Below the pieces are notes generated by a model that was given only the letters and a program-made list of their open reading frames with translations, did not search any database and was not told where the DNA came from. The position numbers and the translations under genes were made by a program. A stretch of 64,000 nucleotides of DNA from Chloroflexota bacterium (GTDB lineage: Bacteria > Chloroflexota > Dormibacteria > Dormibacterales > Dormibacteraceae). This document shows positions 51,274 to 57,672 of this stretch, in pieces; the first letter of the stretch is position 1; each line of letters opens with the position of its first letter. The stretch is taken from NCBI GenBank assembly GCA_005881825.1, contig VBEO01000058.1, positions 1 through 64,000 of the forward strand. Direction: 5' to 3'.

Positions 51274-52329
51274 TCAGGGGACGGTGACGCCAACCTGGTT
51301 CCAGGCATCCCGCACGGCATTGCTGACCGGTCCACTGCCGAACCGGTGCTGGGCCGCGCGCACGGTGACCTGCGCGAAGTCGTGGAAGGTGGCATTGGAA
51401 CGCAGGCCCGGGTCGCGCAGGGTGTCGTACCAGACCGGCCCAGCGTGGTCCCAGGAGCGCCCTCCCAGCTCACGCGCGACCAGGTAGAAGGCGTGGTTGG
51501 GGATGCCGGAATTGATGTGGACGCCGCCGTTGTCGGAGACGGTGTGGACGTAGTGCCGCATCTCGGCTGGCTGCGGGTCGCCCTCGAAGGCAGTGCCGGG
51601 CGCCGCCATCGAGCGCAGAGCCTTGCCGTGGAGGGCGGGGCCCACGATGCCTTCGCCGATCAGCCAGTCCGCCTGCTCCGAGGTCTGGCCCAGCGCGAAC
51701 TGCTTGACCATGGAGCCGAAGACGTCGGAGACGCTCTCGTTGAGCGCTCCTGACTGGCCGAGATAGGTGAGGTTGGCCGTGTGCTCGGTGACGCCGTGCG
51801 TGAGCTCGTGGCCGATGACGTCGATGGCCGCGGTGGTCTGCAGGAGCGTGTAGCCGTCGCCGTCTCCGAACACCATGCGGGCGCCGTTCCAGAAAGCGTT
51901 GTCGTAGTGGTCGCCGTAGTGCACGACACCGTCGAGAGGCAGGCCCTGGTCGTCGATGGAGTTGCGGTGGAAGACGTCCCAGTAGAACTGGTAGGTGGAG
52001 CCCAGCCCGTCGTAGGCCTGGTTCACGGCCTTGTCGCCGACGGCGGGCTGGCCCTCCCGGCGGACCACGTCGCTGGCTTCGGCGTCCTGCTGCTGGTGGG
52101 CGTCGTAGATGGTCCGCTTGGGATGCCCGCCAGGCGCCGGAGACAGGGGCTGCCTGGCCCGGCCGCGGTCGCGCAAGACCAGCGCGTTGTGGATGCGCTG
52201 GGCCCGGATCGAGTGGTCGTCGAGCAGCGTGGCCAGCGCCCACTCCCGCTGCTCGGGAGTGCCGTCGCGGATCACCCGCTCCAGCACGAACGGAGGCACG
52301 ATGAAGCAGGCCCCCACGCACCTCGCCAT
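51274..52329 (-). CDS. M4-family metalloprotease, protealysin type (no signal peptide)
   Basis: Thermolysin-like motifs: HELTH at residues 174-178 in IDVIGHELTHGVTEH, the third zinc ligand Glu in GALNESVSDVFGSM, and DNGGVHINSGIPNHAFYLVA. The N-terminus MARCVGACFIVPPFVLERVI is the short protealysin-type propeptide with a PPxxL-like motif in place of a long thermolysin prosegment, and no signal peptide is seen. The protein (351 aa) is thus probably intracellular or leaves by an unusual route. The adjacent emfourin-like gene would restrain it. It is divergent from the DNA ligase by 23 bp. Confidence 0.9.
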   Translation of the reverse strand: MARCVGACFIVPPFVLERVIRDGTPEQREWALATLLDDHSIRAQRIHNALVLRDRGRARQPLSPAPGGHPKRTIYDAHQQQDAEASDVVRREGQPAVGDKAVNQAYDGLGSTYQFYWDVFHRNSIDDQGLPLDGVVHYGDHYDNAFWNGARMVFGDGDGYTLLQTTAAIDVIGHELTHGVTEHTANLTYLGQSGALNESVSDVFGSMVKQFALGQTSEQADWLIGEGIVGPALHGKALRSMAAPGTAFEGDPQPAEMRHYVHTVSDNGGVHINSGIPNHAFYLVARELGGRSWDHAGPVWYDTLRDPGLRSNATFHDFAQVTVRAAQHRFGSGPVSNAVRDAWNQVGVTVP

Positions 52330-52352: not shown

Positions 52353-54092
52353 ATGGCGATGACCTTTGATCAGCTGGCGGCCTACCTAGACCAGCTAGAG
52401 GGCACCCGCAGCCGCAACGAGCTGGTGCGCATCCTGTCCGAGCTTTACGGCGCCGCGGCGCTCGAGGAGCTGGAGCCCGTCACGTACCTGATCCAGGGCC
52501 GCCTCGCGCCCTTCTTCGTGCCCGTGGAGATCGGGCTGGGCGAGCGGCTCCTGGTCACGGCCGTAGCCATGGCGTACGAGCGGCCGAAAGAGGAGGTCGC
52601 CGCCTCGGCTCGCAGCCTGGGCGATCTGGGTCTGGCCGCCCAAGCCGTTGCCCACGAGGTGACGGGTGACGCTCCGGCCGTGGTCGAGGTGCACCGCCAG
52701 CTGTCCGAGATCGCCGCCCAGAGCGGGACCGGCAGCCAGACCTCGAAGCTGGAGCGCTTCTCACGCCTGATGTCCGACCTGGGCCCGGCGGCGGCCAAGC
52801 ACCTGGTCCGGATCACGATGGGCAAGATGCGCCTGGGCATCGGCGACCCGACGGTGCTGGACGCGCTCTCGATCGCTCAGCAGGGCGACCGCAGCCTCCG
52901 GCCGGTCCTGGAAGGCGCTTACAACCGGACCTCCGACCTGGGCCTGATCGCCCGCACCTTGCGAGCCGCCGGCGTGGAGGCGCTGGATGAGCTGAAGGTG
53001 ACCGTGGGCAAGCCGCTGCGCGCGCAGCTGGCCGAGCGGCTTCCCAACCCGGAGGCGGTCATCAAGAAATTGGGCCTGGTGGGCGTGCAGCCGAAGTACG
53101 ACGGCCTGCGGGTCCAGATCCATCGCCACGACGGCGAGGTGAGCATCTTCTCGCGCAACCTCGAAACCATGACCGACATGTTCCCGGAGCTGGTGGAAGC
53201 GGCCCGCCGGCTGCCGGTCGAGAACGTGATCCTGGACGGCGAAGCCATTGCATACGACCCGGCTTCCGAGGAGTACGTGCCCTTCCAGGAGACCACCTCC
53301 CGGCGCCGCAAGGAAGGCATCGCCGAGGCCGCGGCAGCTGCGCCGCTGCGGGCCTTCGTGTTCGACATCATGTTCCGCGACGGCACGGACCTGACTCCGC
53401 TGCCCTACGAGCAGCGCTTCCAGGTCGTCGACAGGCTGCTTGCCGGCGGCGACACCCTGGTGCCGGCGCCGCTCACCAAGACCGACTCGGTCGAGGTGCT
53501 GACGCGCGAGCTGCTCGACTACATCAGCCAGGGACTCGAAGGCGTGGTCGTAAAGCGGCTCGATTCGCCTTACCAGGCAGGCGCGCGCAACTTCAACTGG
53601 GTGAAGTTGAAGCGCCACACCAGCGGCGAGCTGAGCGACACCATCGACGTCGTCCTCCTCGGCTACTACCGGGGCAAAGGCAAGCGCGCCGAGTTCGGCG
53701 CCGGCGCCCTGCTGGCCGGCGTCTACGACAGCGACCGGGACGAGTTCGTGAGCATCAGCAAGCTGGGCACCGGCCTCTCCGACGAGGGCTGGCGCGAGAT
53801 CCACCAGCGCGCCAACCCGCTGGAGGTGGCCGAGAAGCCTGCCCGCGTCAACTCCGTGCTGGTCCCCGACACCTGGCTGCGGCCCGAGGTCGTGGTCGAG
53901 GTCCTGGCCGACGAGATCACGCCCAGCCCTCGACACACCGCCGGCCGGTCCGGCGACCAGCCGGGCTTCGCGCTCCGTTTTCCGCGGATCGTCTCGGTGC
54001 GCTCGCTGGACAAGCGGCCTGAGGACGCCACCAGCGTGCGCGAGATCCGCGAGATGTACCAGCAGCAGCGCCAGCGCCAGGTTCGCGGCTAG
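52353..54092 (+). CDS. ATP-dependent DNA ligase
   Basis: The 579-residue ligase has an N-terminal DNA-binding domain (FSRLMSDLGPAAAKHLVRITMGKMRLGIGDPTVLDAL), the nucleotidyltransferase motif I with adenylated Lys near residue 248 (VQPKYDGLRVQIH), motif III ILDGEAIAYD, motif IV FVFDIMF, motif V GVVVKRLDSPYQAG...WVKLK and an OB fold (LLGYYRGKGKR). It seals nicks using ATP. Length is in the LigB/archaeal-type ligase class. Two ATGs (52353, 52359) are possible starts. A promoter for the following gene lies in the 50 bp after its stop. Confidence 0.9.
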   Translation: MAMTFDQLAAYLDQLEGTRSRNELVRILSELYGAAALEELEPVTYLIQGRLAPFFVPVEIGLGERLLVTAVAMAYERPKEEVAASARSLGDLGLAAQAVAHEVTGDAPAVVEVHRQLSEIAAQSGTGSQTSKLERFSRLMSDLGPAAAKHLVRITMGKMRLGIGDPTVLDALSIAQQGDRSLRPVLEGAYNRTSDLGLIARTLRAAGVEALDELKVTVGKPLRAQLAERLPNPEAVIKKLGLVGVQPKYDGLRVQIHRHDGEVSIFSRNLETMTDMFPELVEAARRLPVENVILDGEAIAYDPASEEYVPFQETTSRRRKEGIAEAAAAAPLRAFVFDIMFRDGTDLTPLPYEQRFQVVDRLLAGGDTLVPAPLTKTDSVEVLTRELLDYISQGLEGVVVKRLDSPYQAGARNFNWVKLKRHTSGELSDTIDVVLLGYYRGKGKRAEFGAGALLAGVYDSDRDEFVSISKLGTGLSDEGWREIHQRANPLEVAEKPARVNSVLVPDTWLRPEVVVEVLADEITPSPRHTAGRSGDQPGFALRFPRIVSVRSLDKRPEDATSVREIREMYQQQRQRQVRG

Positions 54093-54105: not shown

Positions 54106-54142
54106 CCGATTAGTTTCCGGGCCGCCCCCGGTCTGTACAGGT
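54106..54142 (+). promoter_or_regulatory. ECF-type promoter of the hydrolase-sigma unit
   Basis: CCGATTA (54106-54112), 17 bp, then GGTCTGTA (54130-54137). From GTCT to the ATG at 54143 is 8 bp. The same two boxes, spacing and distance to ATG recur twice at 56173-56257. Transcription would start at or next to the ATG, giving a leaderless mRNA. Confidence 0.65.
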
Positions 54143-54994
54143 ATGGAAGCTGCTGCGACTATGCGATCGGAAACCCTGGAAGTGCCCGGCGCCAGCCTCT
54201 ACTACGAGGTTCGGGGCTCGGGTCCGGTCCTGCTGATGATGCCGGGCGGACCGGCCGACGCCACCACCTTCCGCCGCATGGAGGAGCGGCTGGCCGCCGA
54301 CTACACGGTGGTCACCTATGACCCCCGCGGACTCTCCCACAGCACCGAGCACGAGCCGCTGGACGACTCCCGGATGGTGGAGATCTACGCGGACGATGCG
54401 CACCGCCTGCTGGCCGCGGTGGGCGGCGGCAAGGCTGACGTGTTCGCCAGCAGCGGGGGCGCCGTGATCGCGCTCGAGCTGGCCAAGCGCCACCCCGGGC
54501 AGCTGGCGACCGTCGTCGCCCACGAACCGCCCTCACCCTGGCTGCTGCCCGACAGCGAGCGGGTGCTGGCGGCGATGGAGGACGTCTGCGACACCTGCGC
54601 CAGCGCCGGTCTCTTTCCCGCCATGCAGAAATTCATGACGCTGGTGGGCATCGAGGGCGGGCCGCCGCCGGCATCCGAGGGCGAGCCCAGCCCGGAGGCC
54701 AGGGAGGCGATGGCCATGATGCAGAAGAACTTCGAGTTCTTCTTCGGCCGCTACATCCGCAACCTGGCGCGCTACCGGCCCGATGTGGCGGCCCTAAAGG
54801 ATTGCCCGTGCCGGATCGTGCCCGCGGTGGGCGCCGACTCGGCAGGTCAGCTCGCGCATCGCGGCGGGCTGGGCCTGGCCCAGGCGCTGGGCACCGAGGC
54901 CGAGGTCTTCCCCGGTGACCACGGTGGCTTCGACGGCCGGGCCCCGGAATTCGCCGAGAAGCTCTGCGCTGTCCTGGAGGCCGGGCGGGGCTAG
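54143..54994 (+). CDS. Alpha/beta hydrolase
   Basis: The 283-residue protein has an oxyanion-region PGGPADATTFRRMEERLAADYTVVTYDPRGLSHS, a nucleophile elbow read as FASSGGAVIALELA (GxSxG variant SSGGA with Ser), and a C-terminal His in FPGDHGGFDG. It fits the haloperoxidase/epoxide-hydrolase-like group. Substrate is unknown. It lies 26 bp before the ECF sigma factor and shares its promoter, so it belongs to the same regulon. ATG 54143 is supported by the promoter distance. Confidence 0.8.
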   Translation: MEAAATMRSETLEVPGASLYYEVRGSGPVLLMMPGGPADATTFRRMEERLAADYTVVTYDPRGLSHSTEHEPLDDSRMVEIYADDAHRLLAAVGGGKADVFASSGGAVIALELAKRHPGQLATVVAHEPPSPWLLPDSERVLAAMEDVCDTCASAGLFPAMQKFMTLVGIEGGPPPASEGEPSPEAREAMAMMQKNFEFFFGRYIRNLARYRPDVAALKDCPCRIVPAVGADSAGQLAHRGGLGLAQALGTEAEVFPGDHGGFDGRAPEFAEKLCAVLEAGRG

Positions 54995-55020
54995 TCAGCG
55001 CCCAACCTAGAATCCGACTG

Positions 55021-55998
55021 GTGCAGGAAACGGCCGTCGCCAACCGGCCCGAGTTCGGCGAGCTCGAGCAGCACCGGCAGCAGCTGACCGCCTACTGCTA
55101 CCGGATGCTCGGCTCGCCGTTCGACGCCGAGGACGCGGTGCAGGAGACCCTGGTCCGGGCCTGGCGCGGCGCCGACCGCTTCGCCGGCCGGGCCGCGGTG
55201 CGTTCGTGGCTGTACAGGATCGCGACCAACGTCTGCCTCGACATGCTCAAGAGCTCGCAGCGCAGGGCCCGGCCCATGGATCTGGGGCCGGCCAGGGAGC
55301 CGGTGGAGTCCAACCTCTACATCCCGGCAGAGGCACGCTGGATCGAGCCCATCCCGGACACGATGGTGGCCGGCGACGATCCGGCGGAGACCGTGATCGC
55401 CCGGGAATCCGTCCGGCTCGCCCTGGTGGCGGCGCTCCAGCGCCTGCCCGCCCGGCAGCGGGCGGTGCTGATCCTGCGCGAGGTCCTGCGCTGGGAGGCG
55501 ACCGAGGTCGCCGAGCTGCTGGGGACCACCGTCGCCTCGGTCAACAGCGGACTCCAGCGCGCCCGGGCCACCCTGGCCCAGAGCCAGCAGAGCGTCGCCG
55601 AGACCCGCCAGCCGCTGAGCGAAGGAGACCGCCGCCTGCTCGAGCGCTACGTGGCCGCCTTCGAGCGCTACGACCTGGCGGCCCTCACCTCCCTGATCCG
55701 GGAGGACGCCAGCCAGTCGATGCCACCGTTCGACATGTGGCTGCACGGCCGCGACGACATCTTCACGTGGTGGTTCGGGCCGGGCATCGGCTGCCAGGGC
55801 TCGCGGATGCTGCCGACGGTCGGGGCCAACGGCTGCCCCGCCTACGGCCAGTACAAGCCCAGCCCCAACGGTGGCTACGAGCCCTGGGCGCTCCAGGTGC
55901 TGGAGCTGTCAGGCGGGCGGATCGCCGAGCTCACCTTCTTCCTCGACACCGAGCGCCTCTTCCCCCTCTTCGGCCTCCCCGCGAGACTCGACGGCTAG
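55021..55998 (+). CDS. ECF-type sigma70 factor with SnoaL-like C-terminal domain
   Basis: Region 2 is at residues about 18-85 (QQLTAYCYRMLGSPFDAEDAVQETLVRAW...FAGRAAVRSWLYRIATNVCLDML) and region 4 at about 135-185 (ALQRLPARQRAVLILREVLRWEATEVAELLGTTVASVNSGLQRARATL). A SnoaL-type domain fills residues about 200-325 and may control activity in place of an anti-sigma factor. This matches the SigX5-like group (TIGR02960). GTG 55021 follows the hydrolase. The 3' end overlaps the antisense STAS gene by 90 bp. Confidence 0.9.
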   Translation: MQETAVANRPEFGELEQHRQQLTAYCYRMLGSPFDAEDAVQETLVRAWRGADRFAGRAAVRSWLYRIATNVCLDMLKSSQRRARPMDLGPAREPVESNLYIPAEARWIEPIPDTMVAGDDPAETVIARESVRLALVAALQRLPARQRAVLILREVLRWEATEVAELLGTTVASVNSGLQRARATLAQSQQSVAETRQPLSEGDRRLLERYVAAFERYDLAALTSLIREDASQSMPPFDMWLHGRDDIFTWWFGPGIGCQGSRMLPTVGANGCPAYGQYKPSPNGGYEPWALQVLELSGGRIAELTFFLDTERLFPLFGLPARLDG

Positions 55999-56175
55999 GA
56001 CGCCGGCCAGGCCGGCGAAGTCGATGAGCTCCCGCAGGCCGGCGCTCGGGTTCGCCAGCCGCAGCTCGCACTGAGCTCGGCGCAGGCGCAGGCACAGCTG
56101 GGCGAGGCCGTCCAGCTGTTCGGCGTCCGCATGCGGCAGCGCCGAGCAGTCGAGGACGAAGGTGTGCCGGCCCAT
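55909..56175 (-). CDS. STAS-domain protein antisense to the sigma factor 3' end
   Basis: The 88-residue protein reads TFVLDCSALPHADAEQLDGLAQLCLRLRRAQCELRLANPSAGLRELIDFAGLAGVL, the STAS fold of anti-anti-sigma and MlaB-like proteins. The phospho-Ser motif (DxSG) is not conserved (CSALPHAD). The remaining acidic C-terminal tail is translated from the reverse strand of the sigma gene. ATG 56175 is chosen over TTG 56178 because the promoter at 56184-56212 has the same distance to it as in two other genes. Convergence on the sigma gene hints at joint control of the sigma system. Confidence 0.7.
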   Translation of the reverse strand: MGRHTFVLDCSALPHADAEQLDGLAQLCLRLRRAQCELRLANPSAGLRELIDFAGLAGVLAVESRGEAEEGEEALGVEEEGELGDPPA

Positions 56176-56256
56176 CAATGCTTAGACGCCGGGGCCCCGG
56201 CAAATTCATCGGATGGAAGCCGATGAGTCTTGAGCTGGTTGGTCGTCTAAGCAGGC
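56176..56256. promoter_or_regulatory. Divergent twin ECF-type promoters forming a perfect inverted repeat
   Basis: To the right CCGATGA (56220-56226), 17 bp, CGTCTAAGC (56244-56252), with 8 bp from GTCT to ATG 56257. To the left the same boxes on the reverse strand (56212-56206 and 56188-56180), the same 17 bp and 8 bp to ATG 56175. The boxes are identical, so the gap is a nested inverted repeat. Both mRNAs would be leaderless or nearly so. Confidence 0.75.
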
Positions 56257-57672
56257 ATGAAGACCAACTCACGCTGGATTTCGCTGCTCGTCCTCTGCAC
56301 CGGGTTCCTGCTGATCGTGGTGGACATGACGATCGTCAACGTCGCCCTGCCTACGATCGGCCGCGACCTGCGCTTCACCCCCAGCGGCCTGGCCTGGGTG
56401 ATCAACGGCTATCTGGTCGCCTTTGCCGGCCTCCTGCTGCTGGCCGGCCGGCTGGCCGACCTGGTGGGCAGCAAGCGCGTCTTCCTGCTGGGTCTGGGGA
56501 TCTTCACCGCCGCCTCCCTGGCCTGCGGGCTTTCGACCTCGCAACCCGTTCTGATCGGCGCCCGCTTCATCCAGGGCGTCGGCGGCGCGGCCAGCTCGGC
56601 CGTGATCCTGGCCATGATCGTCGCCCTCTTCCCGGAGCCCGAGGAGCAGGCCAAGGCCTTCGGCGTCTTCAGCTTCGTGGCCTCCGCGGGGGCCGCGGTG
56701 GGGCTGCTGGCCGGGGGCGTGATCACCCAGGTCGTGAGCTGGCACTGGATCTTCTTCGTCAACGTGCCCATCGGGATCGCCACCGCCGTGCTCGGCTACC
56801 GGCTCCTGCCGGCGCGGCCCGGCCTGGGATTGGCCGAGGGCGCCGACGTCCTGGGCGGCGCGCTGGTTACCGCCTCTTTGATGCTCGGCGTCTACGCGAT
56901 CGTGTCCGGGTCCAGCCTCCACGGGCTGCTCGCGGTCGCGCTGCTGGGCGCCTTCCTGGTCCGCCAGGCCCGCGCTCGCAAGCCGATGCTGCCGCTGCGG
57001 CTGTTCGCCTCGCTGCGGCTGTCAGGCGCCAACACGGTGCAGGCGCTGATGTCGGCCGCCTTCCTGAGCTTCTTCTTCCTGGCCTCGCTCGACCTGGAGC
57101 GGGTGCTCGGCTACGGGCCGCTGGCGTTGGGCCTGGCGTTCCTGCCGGTGGCGGTCGTGATGGGCTGCTTCTCAATTCGCTTTGCGGCGGCGCTGGTCAT
57201 GCGCTATGGAGCCTTCCGGGTCCTGGTGGCCGGCCAGCTGGTGGTCATGGCGGGCCTGCTGGCCGTGGCCTTCGGGCCGGAGCGCGCCGCCTACGCGCGC
57301 GACCTGCTTGTGCCCATGGCCCTGCTGGGCCTGGGCGGCGGGCTCTGCTTCCCTGCCCTGACCCTGATCGCGATGTCGGAGGCGCCGCCGGCGGACTCCG
57401 GGCTGGCTTCAGGACTCCTCAACACCACCGGCCAGGTAGGCGGCGCGCTCGGCTTGGCCGTGATGGCCACCGTGGCTGCGGCCCGGAGCGCCGCGCTGAG
57501 CGGCAGCGGAACCCCGGACCTGTCCGCGCTGGCGGGCGGCTACCACGCCGCCTGGCTGGTTTCGGCGGCCATCGTGCTGGTGACCCTCGCGATCACGGTC
57601 GCGACCCTGAGGCCGCGGGCGACGGTGGCCCTGGCGCCGGCCGTCTACGAGGAGGAGGAAGCAGCGGCCTAG
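56257..57672 (+). CDS. MFS drug/solute exporter (DHA2 family, 14 helices)
   Basis: The 471-residue protein has an N-terminal helix with DMTIVNVALPTIGRDL, motif A in LLLLAGRLADLVGSKRVFLLG, motif C-like GAAVGLLAGGVITQVVSWHWIFFVNVP and about fourteen helices, all typical of the EmrB/QacA (DHA2) drug:H+ antiporters. It probably exports toxic compounds. The ATG at 56257 is fixed by the upstream promoter. It is placed in the presumed sigma-factor regulon by that promoter. It is followed by a small ORF and converges on YjbR. Confidence 0.9.
   Translation: MKTNSRWISLLVLCTGFLLIVVDMTIVNVALPTIGRDLRFTPSGLAWVINGYLVAFAGLLLLAGRLADLVGSKRVFLLGLGIFTAASLACGLSTSQPVLIGARFIQGVGGAASSAVILAMIVALFPEPEEQAKAFGVFSFVASAGAAVGLLAGGVITQVVSWHWIFFVNVPIGIATAVLGYRLLPARPGLGLAEGADVLGGALVTASLMLGVYAIVSGSSLHGLLAVALLGAFLVRQARARKPMLPLRLFASLRLSGANTVQALMSAAFLSFFFLASLDLERVLGYGPLALGLAFLPVAVVMGCFSIRFAAALVMRYGAFRVLVAGQLVVMAGLLAVAFGPERAAYARDLLVPMALLGLGGGLCFPALTLIAMSEAPPADSGLASGLLNTTGQVGGALGLAVMATVAAARSAALSGSGTPDLSALAGGYHAAWLVSAAIVLVTLAITVATLRPRATVALAPAVYEEEEAAA

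Follow-up and report, generated by a model that had tools for sequence, protein, structure and literature searches.

The locus described here raises the question of whether three promoter-like boxes lying around the gene of an ECF sigma factor with a SnoaL-type tail are read by that sigma factor, and whether transcription from them begins at the start codons. The locus lies in a 64,000-nt stretch of the genome of a Chloroflexota bacterium (Dormibacteraceae; contig VBEO01000058.1, assembly GCA_005881825.1), which was analysed as a whole and is called the window below. A sequence-only reading of the window had proposed a self-activating local regulon made up of the sigma factor's own operon, an exporter and a STAS gene, with leaderless mRNAs in all three cases. 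The comparative data support such a regulon, with the adjoining sigma factor as its likely reader: positions 54106-56259 very probably hold the promoters from which a stress-type sigma factor of the SigG type activates, in this soil bacterium, its own operon, a drug-type exporter and a small STAS protein. The leaderless part of the proposal fared differently for different genes, as discussed below.

Table 1. Predicted promoters and genes of the locus (window coordinates)
Feature	Position	Strand	Details
P1, promoter of the hydrolase-sigG operon	54106..54134	+	-35 CCGATTA (54106-54112), 17-bp spacer, -10 core GGTCT (54130-54134)
P2, promoter of the STAS gene	56184..56212	-	-35 CCGATGA, -10 core CGTCT(AA); PWM score 29.1
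P3, promoter of the MFS gene	56220..56248	+	-35 CCGATGA, -10 core CGTCT(AA); PWM score 27.0
Alpha/beta hydrolase (promoter-proximal gene of the sigG operon)	54143..54994	+	PF00561, 48.7 bits
SigG-type ECF sigma factor	55021..55998	+	sigma2, sigma4, C-terminal SnoaL_2
Short STAS-domain protein	55909..56175	-	PF01740, 32.8 bits (cut-off 22.6)
DHA2-type MFS efflux transporter	56257..57672	+	PF07690, 162 bits

The initial gene calls (a hydrolase-sigma unit with a SnoaL-tailed sigma factor, a STAS gene and an MFS gene) were borne out by Pfam and NCBIfam profiles. All domains of the sigma factor scored over the cut-offs (PF04542, 76.7 bits; PF08281, 48.8 bits; PF12680, 29.3 bits), and among the NCBIfam models it matched TIGR02960 with 404.9 bits (cut-off 264.75) and PRK08241 with 438.9 bits (cut-off 240). 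The predicted protein is thus a member of the SigG-type family (TIGR02960, ECF56-like), into which SigG of Mycobacterium tuberculosis presumably falls as well. Its closest named relatives, at 70-75% identity, come from soil Chloroflexi MAGs; the closest relative with a solved structure is PDB 7QH5. We rejected membership in ECF41, the other group with SnoaL tails. The SigJ profile PRK09636 gave 113 bits against a cut-off of 271, inspection of the sigma translation found neither the linker motif YVGPWLPEP nor the tail motif NPDKL, and the window promoters carry CCGATKA, whereas ECF41 promoters have TGTCACA separated by a 16-bp spacer from CGTC (TGTCACA-N16-CGTC; PMC3426412).

The hydrolase gene ends 26 bp before sigG, and hydrolase orthologs 61-62% identical to it adjoin sigG in two related loci (L033, L037). 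An in-frame alternative start, ATG 54161, exists in this gene. The STAS gene converges on sigG and overlaps its 3' end by 90 bp; its start is not unique, because an in-frame TTG (56178) lies 3 nt upstream of the ATG. The transporter scored 201.9 bits against TIGR00711, under the cut-off of 230.2, and its orthologs (∼65-70% identical) are divergent from the STAS gene in nearly all Chloroflexi relatives. On the other side of the operon a putative ATP-dependent DNA ligase gene (52353-54092) ends just before P1, and beyond it, on the other strand, lies a thermolysin-like metalloprotease gene (51274-52329, minus strand); both were named by eye.

A pattern search for CCGATKA-N17-SGTCT returned exactly three matches in the window, P1, P2 and P3, with a chance expectation of 0.02; three matches were reached in none of 100 dinucleotide shuffles. 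At all three boxes the gap between GTCT and ATG is 8 bp (ATG at 54143 on the plus strand, 56175-56173 on the minus strand and 56257 on the plus strand), and the distance from GTC to the start is 9 nt. Written in the form used below, P2 and P3 are CGATGA-N18-GTCTAAG and P1 is CGATTA-N18-GTCTGTA. Pattern search and sequence reading thus agree with the first description of the boxes, including the 17-bp spacer and the 8 bp to ATG. A search for housekeeping-type promoters in the region found none. Between the -35 and -10 boxes of P2 lies a perfect palindrome of 14 bp, GCCGGGGCCCCGGC, at approximately 56188-56201.

The genome-wide view was obtained by pattern searches of a draft genome. CCGATKA-N17-SGTCT had no match beyond the three places anywhere in the assembly, which comprises 158 contigs and 3.09 Mb. 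A broad pattern, CGATKA-N17..19-GTC-N7..12-RTG, gave 36 matches versus 6 in the control; we discarded it as too loose, since its matches mostly end in GTG and appear by eye to be coding. Most of them dropped out when RTY was demanded after CGATKA: CGATKARTY-N14..16-GTC had seven matches, and its reversed control had none. Two SigG-type boxes elsewhere in the genome precede an LLM-type oxidoreductase-like gene with a VOC-like ORF nearby (C102:14483-14509, minus strand; L184) and a short ORF beginning 'MTTDATPRGRG...' (C111:13284-13310, plus strand; L185). We considered both as further leaderless members and rejected them, as each has a leader with a Shine-Dalgarno-like sequence.

The motif had been picked after the sequence was seen, and the P2 spacer is a GC palindrome; one could argue that the boxes are chance, protein-coding or repeat sequence of a GC-rich genome. 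To that argument can be opposed, besides the shuffles, evidence drawn from other loci. We built a PWM on 86 sites taken from the 80 named sigG loci, leaving out those of the window. Its seeds were occurrences of CGATKA-N18-GTC with a start codon behind them, which makes the PWM independent of the window sequence, though not of the idea of the motif. In a scan of both window strands the top three scores belonged to P2, P3 and P1 (24.5 for the latter), and the next score was 7.3. When the spacing x in CGATKA-Nx-GTC was varied over the same 80 loci, the counts peaked at x=18, with 41 sites in Chloroflexi, 40 in other and 39 in Streptomyces loci; the remaining spacings mostly had fewer than 15 sites, and Streptomyces loci showed a second rise of 24-28 sites at x=22-23 (28 at x=23). 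Sites with x=18 and an RTG 7-10 nt behind numbered 36, 15 and 35 in these three groups versus ∼0.5 in dinucleotide shuffles. The spacing and PWM scans rule out the boxes as chance, and conservation across genomes speaks in the same direction; we regard this explanation as having a negligible probability.

A strict form, CGATKARTTT-N13..15-GTCTRA, had 38 matches in 61 related genomes, and its reversed control had none. Of 41 genomes whose SigG exceeds the family cut-off, 25 contained it, versus 2 of the 20 genomes lacking such a SigG (Fisher p=2e-4, relatedness uncorrected); the two motif-bearing genomes with no detected SigG are both 82-84% complete. Nearly all fetched matches lie directly before an ORF (MFS, STAS, hydrolase, DHFR-like and others), so that the numerous random matches unlinked to start codons, which the sequence-only reading had named as a possible refutation, did not appear. 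The boxes are also kept in orthologous loci, as seen in the comparison of related genomes it had suggested; the hydrolase gene, for instance, is preceded by an orthologous promoter in relative genomes G002 and G015 (loci L033, L037, L165 and L166). In three relatives (L159, L164, L170) a SigG-type box was found 40-70 nt upstream of a conserved gene, 'MS.VRVLVGTRKGAFVLSSD', which is a probable further member of the regulon.

A convergent STAS gene with a SigG-type promoter was detected by an automatic criterion in 60 of the 80 named sigG loci, a few of which are probably wrong frames (e.g. L077, L110 and L129). This arrangement extends over Chloroflexi, Thermoleophilia-like MAGs and Streptomyces. 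In 54 of these 60 loci the STAS start follows GTC at a distance of 8-10 nt (9 nt in 36, 8 nt in 14, 10 nt in 4); many Streptomyces use GTG as the start codon. All 13 aligned STAS members match STAS_2; in the Chloroflexi forms the domain is missing its N-terminal portion, and inspection showed no conservation of the serine that usually serves as phospho-acceptor. The promoters P2 and P3 point away from each other, their CGATGA boxes 9 bp apart (56206-56226). The same 9-bp gap, with varying sequence, was observed in 13 of the 17 Chloroflexi or near relatives of the named set that have both sites. With such a geometry simultaneous binding at P2 and P3 may be sterically hindered.

Transcription by ECF sigma factors usually starts ∼6 nt after an element such as GTCTAA. 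As the start codon here follows GTCTAA after ∼6 nt, the STAS and MFS mRNAs, and in this genome the hydrolase mRNA, would be leaderless. For the STAS and MFS genes the predicted leaderless geometry is well supported: the -10 element sits too close to the start (∼10 bp) for a Shine-Dalgarno site to fit in between, and the spacing is conserved across genomes, with the MFS start 8-10 nt after GTC in Chloroflexi loci and the N-terminus MKNSRW of the transporter conserved from its ATG. For the hydrolase-sigma operon the leaderless claim does not generalise. In orthologous operons the hydrolase or DHFR-like gene starts 30-50 nt downstream of the box and is preceded by a Shine-Dalgarno sequence; because the orthologous operons have leaders, the leaderless start of the hydrolase gene looks like a local variant of this genome.

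It could also be that the promoters are SigG-dependent with starts elsewhere or with short leaders, so that 'leaderless' is wrong for at least one of the three. Besides the leadered sigG operons of relatives, this is consistent with distant MFS orthologs that likewise have 30-50 nt and a Shine-Dalgarno sequence (L088, L093, L150, L154), with the second possible start of the hydrolase and with an estimate that only 4-6% of genes in Chloroflexi are leaderless (PMC3160421). Yet the tight spacing behind GTC recurs in diverged loci, for STAS in two phyla, and the conserved MFS N-terminus fits the ATG at the promoter; we consider a misassigned leaderless start unlikely.

The boxes themselves are not novel, although the sequence-only reading knew of no published promoter with them. 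In 2013 Gaudion et al. proposed CGATGA(N18)GTCNNTA as the M. tuberculosis SigG promoter, on the basis of overexpression, mutant and 5' RACE data, with the start of Rv0887c mapped (PMC3776920). The window boxes have the same -35, spacing and -10 core, P1 matching except for CGATTA. This identity bears on the question of which sigma factor reads the promoters. CGTC-type -10 elements are common to ECF groups, including ECF41 (PMC3426412), and the genome has 23 matches to the sigma-70 family profile at E<=0.001, nearly all of them weak; the promoters might be real and read by one or more other ECF sigma factors, with SigG a mere passenger. But motif and SigG go together across genomes as well as loci, CGATGA-N18-GTC equals the motif assigned to M. 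tuberculosis SigG, and the -35 of ECF41 is a different one, all of which makes another reader improbable, even more so than an error in the leaderless assignment.

Under the preferred model, in which SigG reads all three promoters, free sigma factor with RNA polymerase core would bind CCGATGAgTTT (-35) and CGTCTAA (-10), with 18 bp from CGATGA to GTC. At P1 it would activate its own hydrolase-sigG operon in a positive feedback, at P3 the MFS exporter and at P2 the short STAS gene that runs towards sigG and overlaps its 3' end. Judging by gene types, the exporter and the hydrolase may deal with a toxic small molecule. The STAS protein would build up in proportion to SigG activity and could feed back on SigG, either as a protein or via antisense transcription into sigG. 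What the comparative data show is the boxes, how they are conserved and spaced, and their association with gene starts and with genomes that have this sigma factor; the reading by this sigma factor, self-activation in vivo and the transcription start at the start codon we infer, and the STAS feedback is a hypothesis.

Self-activation is implied because this Chloroflexi clade has the motif in front of its sigG operon. The motif stands ahead of the operon in the window and likewise in several relatives from Chloroflexi and actinobacteria; the gene next to it is then either a co-directional one upstream of sigG (hydrolase, DHFR-like) or sigG itself (L089, L090, L099, L100). Streptomyces loci of the named set showed no strong site upstream of sigG in the PWM scan. 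Against self-activation one can cite SigG of M. tuberculosis and SigG1 of S. tsukubaensis, both reported not to activate their own genes (PMC3776920, PMC7730460).

One could speculate that SigG and the short STAS protein encoded opposite it are a pair linked by feedback and kept in different phyla, from Chloroflexi to Streptomyces: SigG would drive a leaderless STAS gene, and the STAS protein, in which no phospho-acceptor serine is obvious, or the antisense transcript would tune SigG. We offer this tentatively, with somewhat more doubt than belief. We rejected an RsfG-type anti-sigma factor as the identity of the STAS gene: RsfG matches no Pfam domain, and its gene is transcribed together with sigG1. 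Among the papers covered by our literature search, none combined an ECF sigma factor, a STAS domain and SnoaL, none dealt with a Streptomyces SigG with a convergent STAS gene, and none treated PDB 7QH5; an earlier mention of the STAS neighbour elsewhere is possible. If true, the pair would give an ECF sigma factor a STAS partner outside the SigB/SpoIIA partner-switching scheme.

For SigG-type SnoaL-tailed sigma factors both the targets and the sensed signals are poorly known. The feature described here is real and well conserved, and it is most likely a SigG-regulon promoter set. The comparison extends a single putative M. tuberculosis motif, built from two promoters, to a consensus with support from two or more phyla, and it outlines a core regulon that comprises, besides the sigma factor's own operon, the genes of the MFS exporter and of STAS as well as DHFR-like, VOC-like or hydrolase genes. 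With its predicted leaderless SigG-type promoter, the conserved convergent STAS gene opens the feedback loop to direct tests, also in Streptomyces that can be cultured.

Among known systems, ECF41 (SigJ; Wecke et al. 2012, PMC3426412) resembles the locus in the SnoaL-like tail, the upstream metabolic gene in the same operon, the CGTC -10, a promoter common to operon and target gene, and a small local regulon; it differs in the -35 (TGTCACA), the 16-bp spacer, the COE gene targets and mapped transcripts having 22/23-nt leaders with a ribosome-binding site. The ECF56 pair SigG1-RsfG of S. tsukubaensis (PMC7730460) shares the ECF core with a SnoaL_2 tail and has an MFS gene among its ChIP peaks; unlike the window it has a co-transcribed anti-sigma factor and no autoregulation, its ChIP motif is CCG-N17-CCCTCC, the -10 of which the window promoters do not match, and the available text does not mention a convergent STAS partner. 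The third system, M. tuberculosis SigG (PMC3776920), is a SigG-type sigma factor with the same boxes and spacing and a small stress or detoxification-type regulon. The accessible part of that report describes no STAS/MFS promoter pair, and SigG there is in an operon with Rv0181c-Rv0180c, has the targets Rv0887c and Rv0911 and is not autoregulatory. The promoter class is therefore already published, while start codons at the transcription start combined with a conserved opposed STAS gene were not found described. The architecture of the module is a new variant on this published class, the new elements being the motif at the sigG operon in the Chloroflexi clade, the SigG-type promoter of the convergent STAS gene and the fixed 9-bp gap between the STAS and MFS promoters.
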